The position numbers and the translations under genes were made by a program. Source: Streptacidiphilus sp. 4-A2 (GTDB lineage: Bacteria; Actinomycetota; Actinomycetes; Streptomycetales; Streptomycetaceae). From it: a DNA stretch of 64,000 nucleotides. The notes beneath the pieces are model-generated. The model made no database searches. It was not told the DNA's origin and saw only the letters and a list, made by a program, of their open reading frames with translations. Shown here in pieces: positions 2,038-64,000 of this stretch. The DNA is taken from positions 62,001 to 126,000 of the forward strand of contig JAAFYY010000003.1 of NCBI GenBank assembly GCA_014284505.1, given 5' to 3'. Each line of letters opens with the position of its first letter. The stretch's first letter is position 1.

Positions 2038-3081
2038 TCAGGCGCTGGTCCCCTGGCGTGAGGTGACGTGCTCCAGGAGTAGCTCGGCCACCTTAGTCAG
2101 GATCGGTGCTGAGAGCTGAGCGACCAGGGCCTCTGTGATGTCCTCGGCAGTCGCTGATGCGTGGACGGTGACCACCGCGTCGTCGTCCTGGGTATTAACG
2201 CCGTTAACGGTTGTCGGTTGATCCGGTTGGGACGGGATCACCGCCTGGGTATTAACGCCGTTAACGGTCGGACGCGAGATTGTCTCCGATGGGGGAGACC
2301 CGGGGCTGCTATTAACGCCGTTAACGGTTGCCTCAGCGGATGCAGGTGTCGCCCTCTTGCGCTTCGGCTTGGCGGCTTCCGCAGCGGCCTTCTCTGCTGC
2401 CGCGGCTTGCTCGGCCTTGGGTAGGCGGCCGATTTTTCGGGCCGGTTCCACCTTGAGCTCCCCCGACTCGACCTTCTCCTGCAGGTCCGGTGTCAGCTCC
2501 AGGAGAGCCAGCCGCTGCGACACCCATGCAGGAGTCTTCCCCAGTCGACGGGCCACTTCTCCCTGGGAGATGTGGACCTTGACCAGCTCTTGGAGGGCTT
2601 TGGCCTGGTCCATCGCCGGCACGTCCACGCGATGAATGTTGGCGATGAGCGCGGATTCAAGGATGTCAGCGGCCGTCGCCGCAAGGTCGTCGTGCACGTC
2701 GATCCGGAGCTCGCGCAGACCAGCTGTCCGCGAGGCGGCGAGGCGACGGTTTCCGTCGACGACGACATACTCGGCTTCACCGAGGGCTTCCTCCTGCCCG
2801 GGGTGGGCGGAGAGGAACGCGGCACGCCGGACGACGGTGATCGGCTGGATCTGTCCGCGGACCCGGAGCGACTCGGCCGTCTCTGCGACGTCCGTCAGTT
2901 CCTCGCGGGGATTGAACGGATTGTGGGCAAGGAGTGCCAGTTCCACCTGGGCCGGCGGACGCTTCCCCTCGCCGTTCATGATGTCGGTGCGGGTGCGGAT
3001 GCGGCGCGGCCCCGACTCCTTCGGCTGACCATCGTCGTCTGTCTCGAAGCCGCGGGTCACACGGGTCCTAGGGGGAGTCAT
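2038..3081 (-). CDS. parB: ParB-family partition protein with a repeat-bearing C-terminal half
   Basis: This is a 347-residue ParB-like protein. Residues 45-130 form the ParB/Spo0J N-terminal domain (NPFNPRE, then VVVDGNRRLAASR as the nucleotide-binding box), followed by the helix-turn-helix SQGEVARRLGKTPAWVSQRL at 172-191. Known ParB proteins bind a centromere and, with ParA, segregate replicons. The region after residue 230 is an Ala/Lys-rich linker carrying TVNGVN three times (252, 272, 291), then a short acidic/helical C-terminus that may dimerise. Each TVNGVN is encoded by the same palindromic 19-mer, with GTT and AAT codons that are unusual for this GC content. The ATG overlaps the parA stop (ATGA), implying coupled translation. 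Confidence 0.9.
   Translation of the reverse strand: MTPPRTRVTRGFETDDDGQPKESGPRRIRTRTDIMNGEGKRPPAQVELALLAHNPFNPREELTDVAETAESLRVRGQIQPITVVRRAAFLSAHPGQEEALGEAEYVVVDGNRRLAASRTAGLRELRIDVHDDLAATAADILESALIANIHRVDVPAMDQAKALQELVKVHISQGEVARRLGKTPAWVSQRLALLELTPDLQEKVESGELKVEPARKIGRLPKAEQAAAAEKAAAEAAKPKRKRATPASAEATVNGVNSSPGSPPSETISRPTVNGVNTQAVIPSQPDQPTTVNGVNTQDDDAVVTVHASATAEDITEALVAQLSAPILTKVAELLLEHVTSRQGTSA
2193..2328. repeat. Three copies of a palindromic 19-mer inside parB (candidate centromere)
   Basis: TATTAACGCCGTTAACGGT occurs exactly at 2193-2211, 2250-2268 and 2310-2328, with 57- and 60-bp start-to-start spacing. Each copy contains the perfect palindrome CCGTTAACGG and the interrupted inverted repeat TTAAC-GCC-GTTAA. 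The spacing keeps all copies in the same parB reading frame (TVNGVN). The unit is AT-rich against its surroundings and differs from the chromosomal parS consensus GTTTCACGTGAAAC. No further copy was noticed elsewhere in the window. A partition (parS-like) site for this ParAB pair is the simplest explanation, but it is inferred. Confidence 0.7.
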
Positions 3082-3872
3082 ACGGCAAGCTCCTTTGCCA
3101 GGTCACGCATGACCTGGGCGTGTTCGCTGTCGGGTGCGTACTCCAGCAGCGGGATCTCTCCGTCTGCGGCCTCGCGTCCCTCCTTCAGGTCCCCGATCAC
3201 GGCCAGTACTGACGGGGTGGTGCTCTTCTCCCACTGGTCCTTGTTCTCTGGACCAACTTTCCGCGGCGGCTGTCGTAGGCGTTGATGATCAGCCCAAGGT
3301 AGTCGACCTGGATGCGGCCCTTCTTGCAAAGGTCGTCCTTCTGGGTCTTCAACAGTCGGACAGCGCGGTGGGAGGCACGGTTTGCCCACACCGGGCTGAT
3401 CATCCGGAACGGTCAGCCAGTTCTCCGTCTCGTCGGCGCACGTAGTAGAGCGCCGTGTCCATGTTCAGGCCGAGGCTGGCGCGGCCATCGATGATGACGA
3501 TGTCGTAGTCCGCCTCCAGCGGCTCCAACGCGCGCTCCAGCGCGGCTTCGCTGAATGACACCTTGGACAGGGCAACGTCGCGGAGGAACGCGTCGTCGGA
3601 CGCCGGCAGGAGGTGGAGTCGGCCCCCGAACCGGTCGCCATCAAGCGCGACCAGAAGCTCACGGATGTCACGCTTGGCGCTACGTCCATGTGCATCATCA
3701 GCGTTTCGACGTCGTCCTCGTACATGAGGTCTTCGAAACCGAGCTCAGCGGTCAGGTGCCCTGCGGGTCGTAGTCACGAGCAGCACCCGCAGGCCATCTC
3801 GGCCAGCGCCTGGGAGATACCCGCGGCGAGGAACGTCTTGCCGACCCCGCCCTTCTGATTTGCGATTATCAC
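3078..3872 (-). CDS. parA: ParA-type partition ATPase, frameshifted
   Basis: The GTG at 3872 starts VIIANQKGGVGKTFLAAGIS, a deviant Walker A motif of the ParA/MinD family. Further segments are DYDPQGHLTAELGFED (after a frame change), YDIVIIDGRASLGLNMD (Walker B region), YLGLIINAYDSRRGK and a C-terminus ending MRDLAKELAV. At least three single-base shifts are needed, near 3780, 3420 and 3260, to join these pieces into about 264 residues, the normal size for a plasmid ParA. ParA ATPases move ParB-bound DNA. The start overlaps the preceding gene's stop (GTGA) and the end overlaps parB (ATGA). The shifts may be sequence errors; if real, the partition system would be dead. Confidence 0.8.
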
Positions 3873-4213
3873 CCGACAACAGGCTGAGCAGAGAGAGCTG
3901 GGGAGGGGTGGCAGTCGAGCCACAAAGTGAGTGCCTGGGCCAGCCCTTGGACGTAGGTGACGTTCCGTTCGGTGCAGGCGGCCTTGAAGGCCTCCGGCTC
4001 GCCTTCTGGCAGGAACGTTCCCCAGGTCTTCGCCCCTTCGGTCTTGACCTCCGGAACCTCGTCTGCGGCGTACCAGGCCTTTATAGCGCGCTCGGTGACG
4101 TCCTGAATGTCTAGTCCGTGCTCAAAAGCGCGGATCTTGATGTGTCTGCGCAGCTGGGGCGTGAGAGCTGTAATTAGCTTCTCTCGGTTCCCACGGGGCG
4201 GCGGGGTGCTCAT
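3869..4213 (-). CDS. Small DNA-binding-like protein upstream of parA
   Basis: ATG at 4213 begins MSTPPPRGNREKLITALTPQ; an upstream in-frame start at 4321 exists but its extra residues look non-coding. The segment EKLITALTPQLRRHIKIRAFEHGLDIQDVTERAIKAWY resembles a ribbon-helix-helix or ParR-like fold (short strand, then two helices). The rest contains WGTFLPEGEPEAFKAACTERNVTYVQGLAQAL, perhaps a second such unit. Position as first gene of a three-gene par operon, with start/stop overlap to parA, suggests an operon regulator or accessory partition protein. The family assignment is tentative. Confidence 0.65.
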   Translation of the reverse strand: MSTPPPRGNREKLITALTPQLRRHIKIRAFEHGLDIQDVTERAIKAWYAADEVPEVKTEGAKTWGTFLPEGEPEAFKAACTERNVTYVQGLAQALTLWLDCHPSPALSAQPVVG

Positions 4214-5087: not shown

Positions 5088-5117
5088 TTGACGGACGGTC
5101 ACGTTCGGGGTCATGGT
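5088..5117 (+). promoter_or_regulatory. Candidate promoter for the DUF6879/XRE cluster
   Basis: TTGACG at 5088-5093 is followed after 17 bp by TCATGGT (5111-5117), a weak match to the streptomycete -10 hexamer. It lies about 40 bp upstream of the start at 5158. No further support. Confidence 0.3.
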
Positions 5118-5157
5118 CGTGGAACGTTGTGCAACCGACTTGGTGAAGGAGGATCCC

Positions 5158-5619
5158 ATGGCGCTACGGTTCGTTGCGATCGACCCAGAGACGCAGAACG
5201 GCGGCTCGCCGACGGTGTGGGTGGACGAGGACGTGAGGGAGATCGTCATCCAGGGCTGGAGTGCCGGGCCTGAGCTGCGCGAGCGCATCACCGCGACGCT
5301 GGCCCCGGGGCAGGAGGTGATCCGCATCGCGGCGCGGCTGACCCCGATGCTGCGCCGGGCGTGCGAGGAAGCGGAGCGGCTCGGAGCGGGTGCCGAGGCG
5401 CAGGACAGCGGCTTGCTGCCGGTGTGGGTCGACGCGCAGGCGCGGGAGATCGTCATCCAGGGCTGGGCCGCAGGGGAGGAACTGCGCGAGCGGGTCACCG
5501 CGACGCCGGCCCCGAACCACCAGGCGGGCATCCCGGACGGCGAGGACGTCGTCCGTCTCCCCGCGCGACTGGTCCCGATGTTGAGGAAGGCGTGCGATGA
5601 AGCAGATCGACTGGGCTGA
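5158..5619 (+). CDS. Two-repeat hypothetical protein of the DUF6879/XRE cluster
   Basis: The start is ATG 5158 because it follows a strong ribosome-binding site (GAAGGAGG). The 153-residue protein is an internal duplication. Repeat one runs WVDEDVREIVIQGWSAG through LTPMLRRACEEAERLG; repeat two runs WVDAQAREIVIQGWAAG through LVPMLRKACDEADRLG, about 75 residues later. Each half has a strand-rich start and an amphipathic helical end. It overlaps the DUF6879 gene by 23 bp and lies in the order small protein - DUF6879 - XRE/DUF5753, an arrangement widespread in Streptomyces. Its role is unknown. Confidence 0.8.
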   Translation: MALRFVAIDPETQNGGSPTVWVDEDVREIVIQGWSAGPELRERITATLAPGQEVIRIAARLTPMLRRACEEAERLGAGAEAQDSGLLPVWVDAQAREIVIQGWAAGEELRERVTATPAPNHQAGIPDGEDVVRLPARLVPMLRKACDEADRLG

Positions 5620-33212: not shown

Positions 33213-33912
33213 CCTCGGTCCGTCGGCCCGTACGGCCTCCGGGGCCAGCATCCCTGTCCGGTCTCACCTATCCGTTGACACTGATCCTCGGGTGTTTGCC
33301 ACTGGACCTCGGGCGACGTCGTTCTCTGCCGCTGAATCTCGGGGAAGCGGGGGCCTTGCGGCTCGCCACCTGCCCGTGGTCGCTGCGCGAGCCGTACGTG
33401 GTGGACGCAGACGATCTCGGTGACGGCGGCTTCCGTGGCCTCTTGGAGGAGGTGGGTACTCCTGCGGGTGCCGCCGGTGAAGGCGGAGCTTTCGGCACCT
33501 GCCGGAGGACCAGTGTCAGCTGACCCGGATGCTCTCTATCACGACCTCGTTGACCGGGTGGCCGCACCGACAGCGGGGTACCGATGGCGTCCACCACCTT
33601 GCGGGAATCATCGTCGGCGACCTCGCGAAAATCGTGTGCTTGAAGTTTCAGCCAGGGTGGGGGCAAGCGATGAAGAACTGCGATCCGTGCTGGCCGGTCC
33701 GCTGTTGGCCATGGCCAACAGGTAGGGGCGGTCGAACTGCAGCTCCGGGTGGAACGTCGCGGCAAACTTGTGGCCCGGCCCGCCCAGCGGGCGGTGGCGC
33801 GCACCAGCGCTGAGCGGTCGGCGGGAACGGCGCTGCCAGGTCGGGGCGTTGCGCGCGGCGCAGCACGGCCCAGTGGGCTGCCGACACGGGGGTGCCAGCG
33901 GCCCACCCGGGG
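33213..33912. other. No confident gene between the motif cluster and the phospholipase D gene
   Basis: Partial coding-like text is present on the plus strand, e.g. SADPDALYHDLVDRVAAPT and [20 protein letters not shown] near 33520-33725, but in different frames, with no clear start. It could be one frameshifted gene of about 65 codons ending at 33725, or a remnant. Not called. Confidence 0.35.
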
Positions 33913-36900
33913 CTAGAGGGTGAGTCGGGGCATGGTGAGTCGGTGGTCTGCGACCTCAGCGGGCTCCGGCAGGGTGTTGGCCTGGCGATACGGCCAGGCC
34001 GTCGCGTTGGCAGCGTTCCAGCAAATAGGTGATCTCGTCCAGGCGGCCGCTCGCCTTGGGGTCTCCTGGGCATCCGGGAAGACGCATACGCCGGTGTCCA
34101 GCCGGTTGAGGAGGGAGGTCGGCTCGAGTAGCTCGTAGGGCAGGATTCCGTTCCACGGGATGGGGACCCCGGGGGGGGGGGGAGCCGATGGTGCCGCTGA
34201 AGAACGGGTCGTTGATCAGGTTCCCTTGGTTCTTCATGGCGCCCCAGAACCTCGCGAGTGCCCAGGAAGGTACGGGCGGCCGGTGACGGTCTTCTGGACG
34301 TCAGAGAGGAACCGTGTCACGGCCAGGCGGTTCATCACCGCGCAGTCGAGTTCGGCATCGCACTCCAGCGAAGCGGCGGTTCATGTTCGCGAGCCGCACA
34401 CGAGCAGCGCCTCGTCGTAGGTCTGGACCTTGGCGTGCACGTACACGCCGACGCCACCGGGGGCCCGTCCGGCCCGGGCTTCCAAAGGTTCAGGGCCAGC
34501 ACGCGGTCGCGCGCAGTGGTGCTCAGGCCGTGCCAGAGGGTCTGCATCGCGTTCATCCGGAGTTTGAGCTCGTCGCCTGGGTTGCTCGTGCCGTAGGGCG
34601 GCAGCACGATCAGCAGGCGGAGGCCGTTCACGGTGTTCAGCCGTTCCGCCAGCAGCTTGGCCAGTGGCACGCTCCAGAAGTACTGGTCCCAGATCGTGAT
34701 CAGCTCACGGGCCTGGACGACGGCGTTGGCGACGCCGGCCATGACGGTGAACTCACCTCTGGCCAGGGGCGGGCCGACGCTCCGGCCAAAGCTCGCCGGG
34801 CGCACAGGGATGGTGCGCCACATCTGCACCGCCGCTGTCCCCGCGGGCTTGGTCGGTTGGGCGGCGGGCAGGGGCACCACCCGCTTCTCGCCGGAGACGT
34901 CGGAGAAGGACTGCGCGCTGGTGAGTTGGACCTGGTTGTCCGCGCCGATCAGGGAATTGCGGTCGAACAGGTAGACGCGGCCTTGGGTGTCGATGATCCA
35001 GCGCTCGGAGAACTGCTGCTCCAGGCTGGTGACGATCGGTCCTTCGAGCTTGAGGTGGTGGTCGTGCCAGTAGCGATTGCCCTGCCCGTAGACGTTGGCG
35101 GGGAGGTCTTCGGGGAAGGGGCCGTCGTTGATGCTCGAACGCAGAGGGAAGCTCGGGTAGCCGCCGAGCGGTGGCGGGTTCTGCTTCGGCCAGCCGTCCT
35201 CGGACAGCGGCATGGTGTCTCCCGACTGCCAGTCGCCGATTCCGGTCTCGAGGTTGGCGGGGCGGCCGAAGTCACGGCGGGTGAAGGCGAGGTCGACGCC
35301 GCCGCAGAACGCGACGTTGGTGTCGCCGGCGCGCACGACGATCATCTTCTGGTGGAGGGCGGCAGCTGTCGGTGAGGCGGTGCGCAGGTCGAGGGCGACG
35401 ACACCGATCGGTTGGGTGAGGTTCCACCGCTGTTGCAGGGTGTTGTTGTAGTCCTGGACCGCCGCCGCGATGCTGCAATGCTCGTCGGCGTGGTTCGGCA
35501 TTGTGACGCGTTGCGCGGTGGTGGGCATCCACAGCAGCACTCGCACGGTGATGCCGGCGGCCATCAGCCGCACCAGCAGCCCGAGCGCGGTCTGGTCCTT
35601 GGTCGGCGTCGCTGCCGCGTTCCACGGTTGGCCGCCCCAGGAGTTGGTCTCCGACAGGTCGCGCAGGCCGTTCAGCAGCCAGTCGGCGATGTAGACGTGC
35701 GTGTCGCGCGCGCCGGGCGGCACTCCGTGGTCGGCCTGCTCGTTGCCGTAGGTGATCGTCTCCTCAAGTACGTCGCGGACCGCGTTCATGGTCGCGAATC
35801 CGCCGATGAGCGGGGTGACCAGGCATCCGTTGTCCCACGGCAGCGGCCAGCCGGGTTGGCCGGGTGTGGCGCGGGCGGCCATCGCCGTGCCGTCGCCCCA
35901 CGGTCGCCCGTCGCCGTCGGAGGCGTTCGGGTCGCGTGAGGTGAACTGCAACAGCCACTTTCCCGCTGAGGGGTCCGGTGAGTGCGTTCGGTGGGCGGGG
36001 TAGTAGGCCACGGCGCTGACGCCGTCACTGTTCGGTACCTGCTGCCAGTCGGCGGAGAGCGTGGTGCGGGTGCACAGGGTGTTGTCGGTGCGGACGCCGG
36101 CCAGGCTGCCGTCGGGCAGCGCGCTCACGCCGACGACGCCGCCGCTGTTCGACACCGGTTTCCAGTCGTCGGTGAGCCTGGTGCGGGTCCACAGGTCGTT
36201 GCCCAGGCCGACGCCGACCAGGGTGCCGTCGGGCAGCACGGTGACGGACTTGACCAGGCCGGTCCCGCCGGTGACCCGTTTCCAGTCGTCGGTGAGCCTG
36301 GTGCGGGTCCACAGGTCGTTGCCCAGGCCGACGCCGACCAGGGTGCCGTCGGGCAGCACGGTGACGGACTTGACCAGGCCGGTCCCGCCGGTGACCGGTT
36401 TCCAGTCGTCGGTGAGCTTGGTGCGGGTGCACAGCTTGTTGTCTGCGCGGACGCCGACCAGGCTCTCGTCGGGCATGGCGGTGACGGCCACGATCGGGTC
36501 GCCGGCGCCAGCCACAGGTGACCAGCCGAGCGGCGGCCATTCATCCCCGCCCGGATCGAATTCAGACATGTAGGTGTAGAGGAAGTTGTCCGTCCCGACG
36601 CCGACCAGGGTGCCGTCGCGCCGTGAGCTGACGGCCTTGACCGGGACGCTGCGCGGTAGCTTCGTCCAGCCGCGGAAATCCCAGATGAAAACGCCCAGGC
36701 TGTTGTCCGTCAGGACGCCGATCGTCGAGCCGGTGGGTCCCACCGCTACGTCGATGACTCCGTCGCTGTTCTGCACGTAGCTCCAGCTGTCAGTGAGGGC
36801 TGTGCGGTAACAAAGGGTGTTGTTCAGGCTGATGCCGAAAAGCGTCGCTTGGTACGAATTGGTGTACGGGCTCTGGCCGGCGTCGATGGCCTTCACCAGG

Positions 36901-37235
36901 CCGGCGCCGCCATGCAGCGGCTTCCAGTCCGCGGTGAGCGTGTTACGGGTCCACAGGTCGTTGCCCAGGCCGACGCCGACCAGGGTGCCGTCGACCAGCA
37001 TGGTGACGGACGTGACCAGACCGCTCCCAGGGACTCGACGCCAGGGGCTGGTGAGCGTGGCCCGGCTGTAGAGGGCGCCGTCGGCCGCGGTGCCCAGGAC
37101 CATGCCGTCGGGCAGGGCGCTCACGCTGACGAATTCTGCATTGCCGGGGAGTTGGCTGTCGGGGACCTTCTGCCAGTAGCCGATGTCGGATCGAGAGATG
37201 AGCTTCTTGTCTGAAGTGCCAACACCTATGATCAT
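33913..37235 (-). CDS. Giant phospholipase D-family protein with tectonin-like repeat domain, frameshifted C-terminus
   Basis: ATG 37235 follows GGCGGAG. Residues 1 to about 430 contain about nine repeats of the form [21 protein letters not shown], with phased small and aromatic residues, typical of tectonin/tachylectin-like beta-propellers. The C-terminal region carries the phospholipase D motif [16 protein letters not shown] (about residue 630) and a second one, [18 protein letters not shown], about residue 930, readable only after a frame change. Further indels occur at 34390, in the G12 tract, and near 34060, after which [14 protein letters not shown] gives a natural end at 33913. PLD enzymes hydrolyse phosphodiester bonds in lipids or nucleic acids. 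No signal peptide is seen. Confidence 0.75.
34171..34182. other. G12 homopolymer inside the phospholipase D gene
   Basis: Twelve G residues follow CCCC. Eleven would join the upstream frame ([15 protein letters not shown]) to [16 protein letters not shown]; twelve force a premature drift. Either a sequencing error or a slippage-prone switch. Confidence 0.8.
36181..36420. repeat. 120-bp tandem duplication in the repeat domain
   Basis: 36181-36300 and 36301-36420 are identical except for two bases, encoding two consecutive 40-residue repeat units. A shorter related copy lies near 36940-37020. This indicates very recent unit expansion. Confidence 0.9.
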
Positions 37236-47564: not shown

Positions 47565-48986
47565 TCATGCCGGTGCTGGGCCGGGGCGGTATCCGTACTG
47601 GTCCTCCAGGTCGTCGCGGTGCTCGTCGATGTCGTGCTTGAGGTCTTCGGCGGGGATGTGGGTCCAGGTGGCGAGGCTGTTCAGGGGATGCCTGCGTTCT
47701 GGGCGCTGCTGGCCACAGCGGTGACGGCTTGGTCGAGGGTGGCGATGGTCTGGTTGAGGGTGTCGAGCAACTGCCGGGTGGCGGTGGCGAGGGGTGCGGT
47801 GTCGTGGAGGTCGAGTGAGGCCAGCAGGTCGGTGGCGTCGCGGATCTTGTCGTTGATCCAGGTGCGTTCGGGGCGGGGGACGGTGGCGCGCCAGGTGATG
47901 GTGCCGTCGGCGCGCTGGGCCAGGGTCCGCAGCTGCGCCGCGACGGATGTGGGTTGGTCCTCGCGCGGGATCCACCAGGGGTCCAGTCCCCAGTCGCCGG
48001 GTTGCCCCATTCCGCGGCGGCGGCGCACGAGCGCTCCCCACCATCTGCTCAGGACGCTGCTGTCGGGGACGGCACCGGCCTGGCCGAGCCAGGGCCGGTC
48101 GAGCCTGCGTCCGAGTTCCTGTGCGAACTCTCCGTCGGGCGGGAAGAGCCGGATGCGTTCGGCGCCGCTGTCGCGCCACACCATCTCCGCGACGGCCGGG
48201 TCGAGCAGGGCCTCTGCCAGGGCCACGACTTCGGGGAAGACCACCGGTTCGCGGGCGACCGCCCGCCACCACCAGAACTGCGCCCCGCGTCACCGCCAGC
48301 CAGCTGGTGCAGGCGGGCGGGCCAGATCCGCTCGTCCGTCCACTCCAGGGCCAGGTCCCACCACTGGCACACCACTGCCCGCGCGACCGCGAACACCGCC
48401 TCCGGCGCCACCTGCGCCGCGGTGGCCCTTCGGACCACGGCCAGCCACCGGCGCTGCGCCGCCACGATGTCCGGGCAGCCGCTCAGGTCGAGGTGTTCCA
48501 GGTCGTGCCCCTCCCCGGCGCCCAGGGTCCAGCGCCGGTGGCGTCGGCAGACCCGCTGCCACCCCTCGCGGTACCGCATGGCGACCACCGGCTGCCCGGT
48601 GCGCCGGGCGGTGCACAGCCGGCACGCGTAGGCGACGGGGCCGTGGGCCGCTGCTCCGGACTGCCAGCCGGCCCTGCGGGCGCCCGTCGGTGACCGGGGC
48701 GCTGAACAGGGCCGGCCCGCCTGTCCAAGTGGGCAGGGCGCGTTCCAGGGTGGCGGGGTCGGCGCGGCACATGGCCGCCAGCAGGTCCTGCCCGGCGGGG
48801 TCGAGCAGCACTTCGGCGTCGGGGCGCACCCCGCTGGTGCCGGGGAGCGCGGGGATGGTTCCGCCACTGCCACGACGTCCGCAGGTCGGTGGCCGTCATG
48901 CCGTACCGGGCGGCGATCCTTCCCAGCAGAGACCACGTGGTCTCCGCCGGGAGCGGCGGGATCCGCAAAGCACCAGCCTGAGTCAC
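47565..48986 (-). CDS. Second TniQ-like protein, frameshifted
   Basis: GTG 48986 begins MTQAGALRIPPLPAETTWSL, then LGRIAARYGM, the N-terminal TniQ signature. After two or three single-base changes the zinc part appears: ACRLCTARRTGQPVVAM and VCRRHRRWTL, followed by AQRRWLAVVRRATAAQVAPE. The C-terminal half (VVALAEALLDPAVAEMVWRD, IPREDQPTSVAAQLRTLAQR) is helical with a final DLKHDIDEHRDDLEDQYGYR. About 470 residues. It differs from the tniQ at 40049 and is not adjacent to tniB; it heads an operon with the zinc-ribbon and nuclease genes. Confidence 0.7.
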
Positions 48987-61700: not shown

Positions 61701-64000
61701 TGTACTCCTACCAGTCGATCCCCCTGGGCGCAGCCCACACGGCAGGTGTGAACCGCTGGAACCCGGCGCTGTACATCGGCACCGACGGCAAGCTCTACGG
61801 AGAGCTGGGCGACGGCACCATCACCCCACCGTTTCCACCAGTGCCGTCGACGACGGCAAGTGGCACCAGGCTGCCCTGGTCGCCAACGGCACCACCGAGC
61901 AGCTCTACCTCGACGGCGAGCCCACCGGCACGCGGTCAGCGGCACGATCACTTACAACGGCGAGAGCTACGCCTACCTGGGGGCGGGGACCGACGACGGC
62001 TCCTGGCCCAATCATCCCAATGACGTCAGCGGGCATCTGAACGGTGCCCTGGCCGACTTCGCCGCCTACGACTACGCGCTTGACCCGGCGTCCATTGCCT
62101 CGCAGTACACCACCGTGTCCTCGCCGACCGTGGCGGGCAGCATCGGCACGGACGCCGCCAGTGCCTACCGCGACCAGATCGTCCAGGCCGATCCCATCGG
62201 CTACTGGCGCCTGGACGACCCCGACCGCGCGGCCGCAGCCCGGCCACCGACGAGCTGGGGACATCCCTGCCCGACCCGTACGCGGGGACCTACGGCAACG
62301 TCACCTTGAACGGCGGCGGCATCGGCCCCTCCGGCAACCCGACGAGGGCTCCGCCACCTTCAACGGCACCAGCTCCTCACTGCAACTGCCCGCCAACGCC
62401 GCTCCCACCAGCGGACCAGCCACAATCGAACTGTGGTTCAGAACCACTACAGCGGGCATCCTGTACTCCTATCAGACCGCCGCACTGGGATCCTCCGCGA
62501 GCTACTGGAACCCAGCCCTGTACGTGGGTACCGACGGCAAACTCCACGGCCTGTTCGTGGACGTCGCCGGTAGTACCAGCGACTGCTGACCAGCAGCACC
62601 GCGTCAACGACGACAAGTGGCACCAGGCCGTGCTCAGCGCCACAGGAACCAGCGAGACGCTCTACCTCGATGGGCCCAGCAGGCCACCGAGTCCAAGGGC
62701 ACGCTCCAGTTTCAACGGCAGTGCCTATGTCTACATCGGCGCCGGCACCATCAACCCCAGTTACTGGGCCGACGCCCCCGCCTGCGCGCCAGCTGCACGA
62801 ATTACTTCAACGGTGCCATCGCCGAGGTCGCCTACTACCCCAGCGCCCTCAGCACGGCCGACGTACTGGCTCACTACAAGGCCATGGCCTCCGCCGCCAG
62901 CCCCACCCTGGTCACCACCGCCACCGTCACGGACCCCGGCGGCAACACCCTGACCTACCAGTACAACGCCATCACCGAGCAACTGCTGGCCTACACCGAC
63001 GCCTACGCGCACACACCCGCTACACCTACGACAACAACGGATTCCTTCAGACCGTCACCGACCCTGACGGGCACACCACCACCACCGTCCATGACCGCGC
63101 GGCAACACCACCTCCACCACCACCTGCCAAAGCCCAGCAACTGCCAGACCAGCTACGCACGTTCTACCTGGACTCCACCAACGGGTCGATCCGCAGAACG
63201 ACGAAATGCTGACCAGCTCGGATGCCCGCTCGGCCAGTGGTACGGACACCACGTACACCACCACCTACAGCTACAACACCGTTGGCCAGCCGACGACCGC
63301 CAGGCAGCCAAGCGGACGTACTGAGGGTGACCAGTACACCATGGGCACCGAGACAGCGGCCGCCGGACTGAGCCAGCCGGTCTGCTGGCCGTCAGCAGCG
63401 ACTGGAGTGACAACCGGCCGACGACGTACAGCTACTACAGCAACGGCGACCTGGCCAAGGAGATCTCCCCATCAGGGCTGACCACCACCTATACCTATGA
63501 CAACCTGGGCCGGGTCCTGACCAAGACCGAGGTCTCCGACACTACCCGGCCGGTCTGGTCACCTCATACACCTGGGACGGCCAGGGCAACCCGCTTACCG
63601 TGACCGACCCGGCTACCACGACGCCAACACTGGTAATAAGGCACACACCCAGCAGACCAGCTACACCTACGACGCCGACGGCGACACCCTGACCCAGACC
63701 GTCTCCGACCTCACCGGCGGCGACAGCGCCCGCACCACCACATGGCAGTACAACTCGAATAACGACCAGGTCAAGCAGGTCACGACCCGGCCGGACGCAC
63801 CACCCAGTACACCTACGACGCTACGGCAACGTAGCCAGCACCACCGATGCGGCAGGCACGGTCTACGACTACACCTGGTCCCCGATGGGGCAGCTGCAGA
63901 GACCGCGATCGCCAACTACACCGGCAACCCGACCGACCCGCTCTCCGCCCGGCTCCAGGTCACCGACTCCCGCGCCTACGACCCGGCCGGCCGTCTGGCC
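55760..64000 (+). CDS. Exported RHS protein with LamG-like modules (partial, heavily frameshifted)
   Basis: ATG 55760 gives MRRAWLVLVDRIVGRDWLTF and a membrane-targeting segment (VLALLTVLTVLLTLATQSAG). Next come a wall-protein-like N-terminal domain (SVFQNPDGTRTMRVYSRPVH, VVYNAQVQGIKESLILHSAA), a WVPG-type segment, and the RHS start DPLSGDYSTQVTDAKVNVVG with SYNSLDPRTSGLFGAGWSSQ. Four LamG-like units follow (59830-62900), then YD repeats (LTTTYTYDNLGRVLTKTE, TYDADGDTLTQTV) continuing past the window end. Dozens of one-base frame changes, often at C or G runs, split the frame. The toxin tip, if any, is outside. RHS proteins deliver C-terminal toxins or act as adhesins. Confidence 0.8.
59830..62900 (+). 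repeat. Four LamG/concanavalin-like modules
   Basis: Each begins with an aromatic-rich motif: SYWRLNDPAGTD near 59850, GYWRLSDGSGTE near 60725, GFWPLDDASGNQ near 61455, GYWRLDDPDRAA near 62200. Each continues with ATFNGTSSSL-, LWFKTTTAGVLFSY- and LYVGTDGKL-type text, and TQTLYLDG or similar. Modules are about 640-870 bp and clearly homologous, split by frame changes. Confidence 0.75.

Follow-up and report, generated by a model that had tools for sequence, protein, structure and literature searches.

The sites of the Noc-NBS and ParB-parS pairs are built around an even centre, and the parB gene of Bacillus subtilis carries a single internal parS with the canonical word. This internal site, parS-359, lies within parB/spo0J (PMC4442127). 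Partition systems of Streptomyces plasmids are, according to PMC13245405, poorly characterised. ParB1 of plasmid SCP1 binds a 13-bp inverted repeat, as established by ChIP-seq and BLI, and parB1 has an internal parS1; parB1 and parB2 each contain an internal parS, which was removed without changing the protein (McPhillips et al. 2026, PMC13245405). CTP-dependent sliding has been demonstrated for SCP1 ParB (PMC13245405). In the ParT-parS system of SCP2, the parS is situated in the coding sequence of parT (PMC12260392). At the level of individual residues, experiments on the Noc site established that R201 reads cytosine 6 and Q173 adenine 1 (PMC7383237).

The candidate parS array analysed here is, as the internal parS sites of the SCP1 type, located within the coding sequence of a parB gene. 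The original prediction of this array knew of no described example; parB1/parB2 of SCP1, parT of SCP2 and parS-359 of B. subtilis provide such precedents.

Results

The window, i.e. the whole stretch of 64,000 nucleotides that was analysed, comprises positions 62001–126000 of the 150,207-bp contig C2, one of four contigs of a 9.05-Mb genome (9,054,065 bp); C2 (ca. 150 kb) is taken to be a plasmid and, judging by its relatives, probably belongs to Streptomycetaceae. The parB gene (2038–3081, minus strand) codes for a type-I HTH-ParB of 347 residues, in which a ParB_N domain (PF02195, 6.7e-8) is combined with a central HTH domain (PF17762 HTH_ParB, 1.3e-13) as in the ParB proteins of type-I ParABS systems; TIGR00180 scores above its cut-off and PDB entries of Spo0J/ParB match down to 3.2e-15. 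An AlphaFold2 model of this ParB, calculated from a 7-row alignment and with a mean pLDDT of only 60, is composed of a ParB_N-like part plus HTH, a segment from residue 241 to 309 with pLDDT <50 and two C-terminal helices (312–321 and 325–346), which may represent the C-terminal dimerisation domain expected after a flexible linker. The segment 241–309, encoded at 2155..2361 (minus strand), is predicted to be a disordered linker, and the same linker holds the site copies of the relatives described below. Directly upstream of parB in the operon, parA (3081..4213, minus strand) is recognizable by homology to nearly all of the 382-residue ParA of SLP2, the homologous region being split in this assembly into five pieces in shifted frames. 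As the assembly is estimated to be only 76.5% complete, the frameshifts may be sequencing errors or assembly indels; alternatively, parA may be decayed and the operon dead. An ORF of 168 aa at 5113–5619 (plus strand) contains an internal duplication, whose blocks share 81% and 73% identity and are spaced by 207 and 231 bp, and matches no Pfam family above cut-off.

Within parB, the 19-mer TATTAACGCCGTTAACGGT is present on the plus strand in three exact copies (2193–2211, 2250–2268 and 2310–2328), whose starts are spaced by 57 and 60 bp; no such triplet was found in 100 dinucleotide shuffles. Each copy reads ACC GTT AAC GGC GTT AAT in the parB frame and encodes TVNGVN at residues 291–296, 272–277 and 252–257, respectively (numbered from the start codon at 3081). 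All three copies lie inside the linker of low pLDDT; the predicted threefold in-frame identity and its placement in a linker are both borne out. The 19-mer as such had been regarded as the palindromic unit; this has to be revised, as the functional unit is a 13-bp odd palindrome with a one-base centre, TTAACG-C-CGTTAA in this parB and TTAACG-S-CGTTAA in its general form, with TTAACCCGGTTAA as its C6 variant. The three candidate parS cores are positioned on the plus strand at 2195..2207 (copy 1, TTAACGCCGTTAA), 2252..2264 (copy 2) and 2312..2324 (copy 3), inside the codons of residues 292–296, 273–277 and 253–257. The repeat unit consists of the site and a few flanking bases and nothing longer.

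A search of the whole assembly with the 13-bp core at ≤1 mismatch hits just three places, all of them in parB (reversed-pattern control 0). The canonical chromosomal parS GTTTCACGTGAAAC occurs in ten exact and five one-mismatch copies, all on contig C4, and no copy was found on C2, in line with the prediction that the array word differs from the chromosomal one.

One may argue that the array mainly serves to keep ParB bound at the parAB operon and so restrict its expression, segregation being secondary or accomplished elsewhere. ParB could spread over the operon from sites inside it, and of 13 loci of relatives with the half-site words ATTACG, CTAACG or CTTACG, nine have a further site on the parA promoter side, located 1,200–1,800 bp upstream of parB. 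In the present plasmid, however, the array is located ca. 1.9–2.0 kb downstream of the parA start and, at ≤1 mismatch in the whole assembly, no core copy resides on the promoter side; within the TTAACG class, a copy 1,200–1,800 bp upstream of parB is found in 2 of the 22 loci with ≥1,500 bp of upstream sequence. The coupling to repression put forward in the original prediction therefore receives no direct support from this plasmid. Moreover, these sites are the only ones of the genome and must therefore also serve as centromere, if the ParABS system works. We consider a mainly autoregulatory array improbable and prefer its interpretation as a centromere.

Relatives were collected by tblastn with the window ParB (1,012 plasmid records at E 1e-5), and 30 plasmid stretches, seven genome-contig loci and further loci from family-wide scans were examined. 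A codon table compiled from exact matches presupposes the very codons of the motif; a peptide-first test was therefore used instead, in which peptides of the form [VIL]N[AG]V[NKD] past residue 150 were collected and then checked for the core. The exact 13-bp core underlies 82 of the 86 peptides from 34 TTAACG-class parB genes (window included), compared with 0.0012 expected per VNAVN from the codon usage elsewhere in the same genes. The GTT codon is rare as predicted: with the cores set aside, these genes use it for 44 of their 780 Val codons. Of the four peptides without an exact core, two are decayed copies in L005, while L073 and L093 contribute one apiece. All 13 peptides of the TTAACC class are encoded by an exact core. 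Freely varying synonymous codons in homologous genes, which would have pointed away from the original prediction, are the opposite of what was observed, and the data support selection on the DNA rather than on the peptide.

The same data are pertinent to the idea that selection maintains TVNGVN as a peptide, e.g. as a short linear motif of the linker in contact with ParA or with a protein of the host, so that the identical DNA would be incidental. There are indeed three in-frame copies of the peptide, and relatives have it as well, but its residues vary (V/I/L, A/G, N/K), as do the residue preceding the core and the codons at either end, whereas the 13 base pairs are constant, and the exact core brings its rare GTT codons into all but the four peptides named above. 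Moreover, in the TTAACC class the peptide becomes NPV or NRV as the DNA word follows the HTH, and in L010 copies are also found between genes and in a neighbouring gene. Retention of the repeats for the sake of the peptide is thus very improbable, and they are best regarded as DNA sites.

The reading frame of the sites follows a simple rule. In the 57 loci with an assigned word, all 113 internal copies, representing nine words, are in one and the same frame. If any of the nine words is read in the remaining two frames, a stop codon appears in one of them and a TTA codon in the other. TTA is the rare bldA codon in Streptomyces; in the TTAACG-class genes, cores set aside, it is used 0 times among 10,821 codons. 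Therefore, the palindrome can hide in a gene in just one frame. The held-out loci introduced below contribute 19 further internal copies, 18 of which are in the usual frame; the sole exception, in L118, belongs to the word ATCACG, for which the frame used there has neither a stop nor TTA. The word GAAACG is compatible with all frames, and its three copies are nonetheless in the usual one.

The core spacings of the 34 relatives (window included; n=49) amount to 60 bp in 27 cases and also to 9, 39, 48, 51, 57, 69, 72, 81, 117 and 120 bp. The originally noted spacings of 57 and 60 bp are correct, but the helical phasing deduced from them is rejected, as they do not correspond to whole turns and the relatives range from 9 to 120 bp.

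The words assigned in the 57 loci are TTAACG, TTAACC, ATTACG, CTAACG, CTTACG, TAAACG, TAAACC, TTTACG and ATAACC, to which later loci added ATCACG, TTTACC and GAAACG; bases 4 and 5 are AC in every word seen. The 57 ParBs with an assigned word served as the covariation set. Residue 212 is Glu or Asp in 48 of the 49 ParBs with a G6 word, the remaining one carrying Ala (L090), and Lys or Arg in 8/8 with a C6 word, which amounts to a match with base 6 in 56/57. Residue 185 matches base 3 in 57/57, being Gly with T3 (13/13) and Ala or Pro with A3 (44/44). Gln184 accompanies A1 in 11/11 cases and is found in 0/46 others; Ser184 is present in all three ParBs with C1, yet one T1 ParB also has Ser. In the window ParB, the corresponding residues are Pro184 and Ala185 of the recognition helix (codons 2527..2532, minus strand) and Glu212 (codon 2446..2448, minus strand). 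HMMER aligned residue 212 to the G of 'GHAR' in Caulobacter ParB; as G201 and R204 are named as contacts in PMC7383237, this glycine is taken as Caulobacter residue 201; on that alignment, residue 184 would correspond to residue 173. The sharpest case of a word tracking an HTH residue is L019, which has an HTH near that of the window's class, Lys212, and three linker sites TTAACC-S-GGTTAA encoding TINRVN, TVNPVN and TVNPVN.

A fixed rule derived from these residues reproduces 55 of the 57 training words (misses in L086 and L090). In a held-out test, from which eight loci that had been looked at before or have no HTH were left out, the predicted word with a one-base centre was found in 14 of 19 further loci (three with base 3 left open), in comparison to 0 of 2,861 locus-word trials with permuted half-sites on the same stretches. 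The five failures are L106 and L112, where nothing was found, L114, which contains TTAACG five times instead of the predicted CTAACG, and L132 and L142, which have GAAACG in the linker and His184/Val185, residues absent from the training set. The GGAAACGNCGTTTCC words of these His184/Val185 ParBs extend the code and are located at 642 and 974 in L132 and at −1469, 591 and 645 in L142, relative to the start of the parB alignment. L114 is a plasmid of Nocardiopsis changdeensis, which belongs to another actinobacterial order; its TTAACG words are placed inside and near parB, and residues 184, 185 and 212 are S, A and E.

On a quick tree of 126 N-domain columns with the HTH excluded and 77 rows, the words of 20 of which were found after the first 57 and some via prediction, base 6 and residue 212 each change 9 times, base 3 and residue 185 each 7 times, and A1 and Gln184 each 4 times. 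The residue-word links are phylogenetically clustered; on well-supported branches there are two independent pairs per trait, all concordant and too few for a sign test. The site word changes together with the specificity residues of ParB, as is characteristic of parS, with weak independence on the tree. Covariation and held-out prediction together suggest that the ParBs bind these sites.

A perfect odd palindrome of 13 bp recurs inside parB in 36 of the 49 distinct loci (0/2,450 dinucleotide shuffles) and within 1.8 kb in 41 of the 49 (0/980); the shuffle controls cover these 49 loci only. The set was enlarged to 70 loci, ten of them chosen by the pattern itself; leaving out those and the window, 59 protein-found loci remain, which contain a recurrent word within 1.8 kb in 46 cases and inside parB in 40, with ≥2 copies there in 31. 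Of the 13 loci where no recurrent word was found within 1.8 kb, four contain the expected word just once (L023, L099, L107, L111). In five others the site is decayed, relaxed or even-centred (L005, L085, L028, L030, L031), and in the last four nothing was found within this distance (L020, a match without HTH, L029, L106, L112). In L028 and L030, which have Arg212 ParBs, one even-centred CTTTACCGCGGTAAAG is located just past parB and represents the half-site predicted by the rule with a two-base centre.

Ten related plasmids were searched whole. The word lies at parB in nine of them and in 7/9 nowhere else. NZ_CP108305 (W05) has a second cluster ca. 3 kb downstream of parB, and in W10 the copies are spread over ca. 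5 kb and two places some 100 kb away (18 places at ≤1 mismatch). W09, the tenth, was found to have no TTAACG word and has TTAACC sites at its parB. Like W10, the large plasmids of L010, L070, L076 and L084 contain many copies over several kb, also in a neighbouring HTH gene and in intergenic regions. In NZ_CP108305 (also L005), the parB copies at 33812–33944 are partly decayed (one exact and two one-mismatch), and the second cluster at 36899–37031 consists of three sites at 60-bp spacing; this may be a centromere on its way out of the gene.

Where a plasmid has two parB genes, as in two cases, a separate word is found at each gene. In NZ_CP108282 (W04), TTAACG is restricted to the first parB (48,242–48,377) and ATTACG is found only in or near the second (164,629, inside the match, and 165,655). 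In NZ_CP108865, CTAACG is found at the first parB (stretch L087 searched, not the whole record), and ATTACG at 81,848–84,320, around the second parB and only there. ATTACG sites are absent from 20 of 24 plasmids searched whole; besides the two plasmids with two parB genes, they are present on the ATTACG-class plasmids of L089 and L090.

In the genomes of the family, the exact 13-mer is detected in 87/394 (reversed control 5), singly on many chromosomes, and two sites 46–73 bp apart in 19/394 (reversed control 0/394). Among the 18 paired-site genomes besides that of the window, parB is inside the 3-kb locus in 12 and absent from the other six loci. When 29 loci with the 13-mer were fetched, four contained parB and 25 belong to another site class, CTTAACGSCGTTAA[AG], with no parB in the locus. 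The 13-mer alone is therefore insufficient to identify a parS. The CTTAACGSCGTTAA[AG] sites are single or paired 34–36 bp apart (L044, L052, L057); those of L033 (at 1501) and L052 (at 1501 and 1536) separate a TetR-like gene from a divergent FAD monooxygenase gene (names read from the translations). This class is perhaps a TetR operator that resembles the present parS. In viral contigs, 17 stretches fit the peptide pattern, and none encodes a relative in a search that detects close relatives only.

The abundance of CTTAACGSCGTTAA[AG] sites away from parB, in two cases beside a TetR-like gene, is what the notion rests on that the sites in parB are operators of another DNA-binding protein, such as a TetR-type regulator. 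However, these sites mostly differ in their flank and occur singly or in pairs, with no parB in the 1.5 kb around them; none exists in the genome of the window, and the parB-linked words change with the HTH residues of ParB, which makes such an assignment very unlikely. Replication iterons or a recent tandem duplication in parB without a partition role, as might be suspected from direct repeats at near-regular spacing, are hardly conceivable, since Tandem Repeats Finder reported no array, the repeat is limited to the site and its immediate flanks, relatives differ in its spacing, and the words form palindromes that covary with ParB.

Discussion

Codon constraint, covariation between word and residues, and held-out prediction jointly argue that the array in parB is very probably the cognate parS array of its own ParB. 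Based on these sequence data, we regard it as highly likely that the array is the centromere of its replicon, whose 13-bp palindromes are bound by dimers of its own type-I ParABS ParB. The originally proposed candidate centromere array inside parB has thus gained substance by its uniqueness in the assembly, the covariation of its word with the HTH and the 14 of 19 correct held-out predictions.

We propose the following scenario: ParB dimers would bind TTAACG-S-CGTTAA, present in three copies inside the disordered linker region of parB. As expected from established ParB biology, bound ParB would close as a CTP-dependent clamp, slide onto the adjacent DNA and be moved by ParA. If ParB is loaded on sites within parB and moved by ParA, the gene would be coding sequence and segregation handle at once, and the array would act on clamp loading and segregation and might also influence transcription. 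The peptide TVNGVN would be a by-product of the DNA site; the copies presumably fit inside the gene because the only frame free of stop and TTA codons gives a bland peptide that the floppy linker tolerates. With the sites and the ParB that reads them in a single gene, an altered specificity would be passed on jointly with its matching sites.

On balance, we also favour, with more reserve, an extension to the family: in most plasmids of the Streptomyces family with this kind of ParB, the linker might be a coding-compatible landing strip, and protein and site a self-matching gene in which a residue change (e.g. E to K at 212) and a change in every linker site occur together. Such a process would yield new, mutually compatible centromeres and a readable code (residues 184, 185 and 212 versus bases 1, 3 and 6). 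How a centromere and its reader may change without mismatch would have a simple answer, namely one gene. The analysis provides candidate parS sites, at the sequence level, for a large group of Streptomyces plasmids, 427 records of which match the window ParB at E 1e-20. It further offers a testable code that relates residues to bases in ParB specificity and thereby also in plasmid incompatibility.

A parS inside parB has published precedents. No description of an array of three sites in one linker, of the frame rule or of the residue-base code was found in the literature searched, most subscription papers being outside its scope. The 13-mer and 14-mer gave 0 matches in the text of 5.39 million papers (figure- or supplement-only sites outside scope), and no parS mapping on SLP2 was found in the literature searched, the scope of which excludes the 2010 Hsu and Chen paper and most subscription papers. 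The letters of parS1 and parS2 are not printed in the text of PMC13245405, where TTAAC has 0 matches, and SCP1 is compared by description.

SLP2 of S. lividans (NC_004933) has a ParB 61–62% identical to that of the window and the same word in its parB linker, in two copies instead of three, which are the sole ones on SLP2 at ≤1 mismatch. The parABS1 and parABS2 systems of SCP1 (Streptomyces coelicolor) resemble the window in their type-I HTH-ParB, their residence on a linear Streptomyces plasmid and, as described, their three identical short palindromic sites per ParB, 13 bp long for parS1; in SCP1, however, the three sites are distributed around the operon with one internal to each parB, whereas in the window all three form an array in one parB linker (PMC13245405). 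SCP2, also a Streptomyces plasmid, resembles it in having a palindromic parS located in the gene that encodes the binding protein, but has one 18-bp site and a ParT without apparent CTPase domain (PMC12260392). In B. subtilis, parS-359 is likewise inside parB (PMC4442127), but chromosomal. Finally, the switch between Noc-NBS and ParB-parS corresponds to the family of the window in the assignment of residue 201 to half-site position 6 and of residue 173 to position 1 (PMC7383237); it concerns chromosomal sites, none of them encoded in cis, whereas the present family consists of plasmid ParBs with odd-centred sites and pairs acidic residues with G6 and basic residues with C6.
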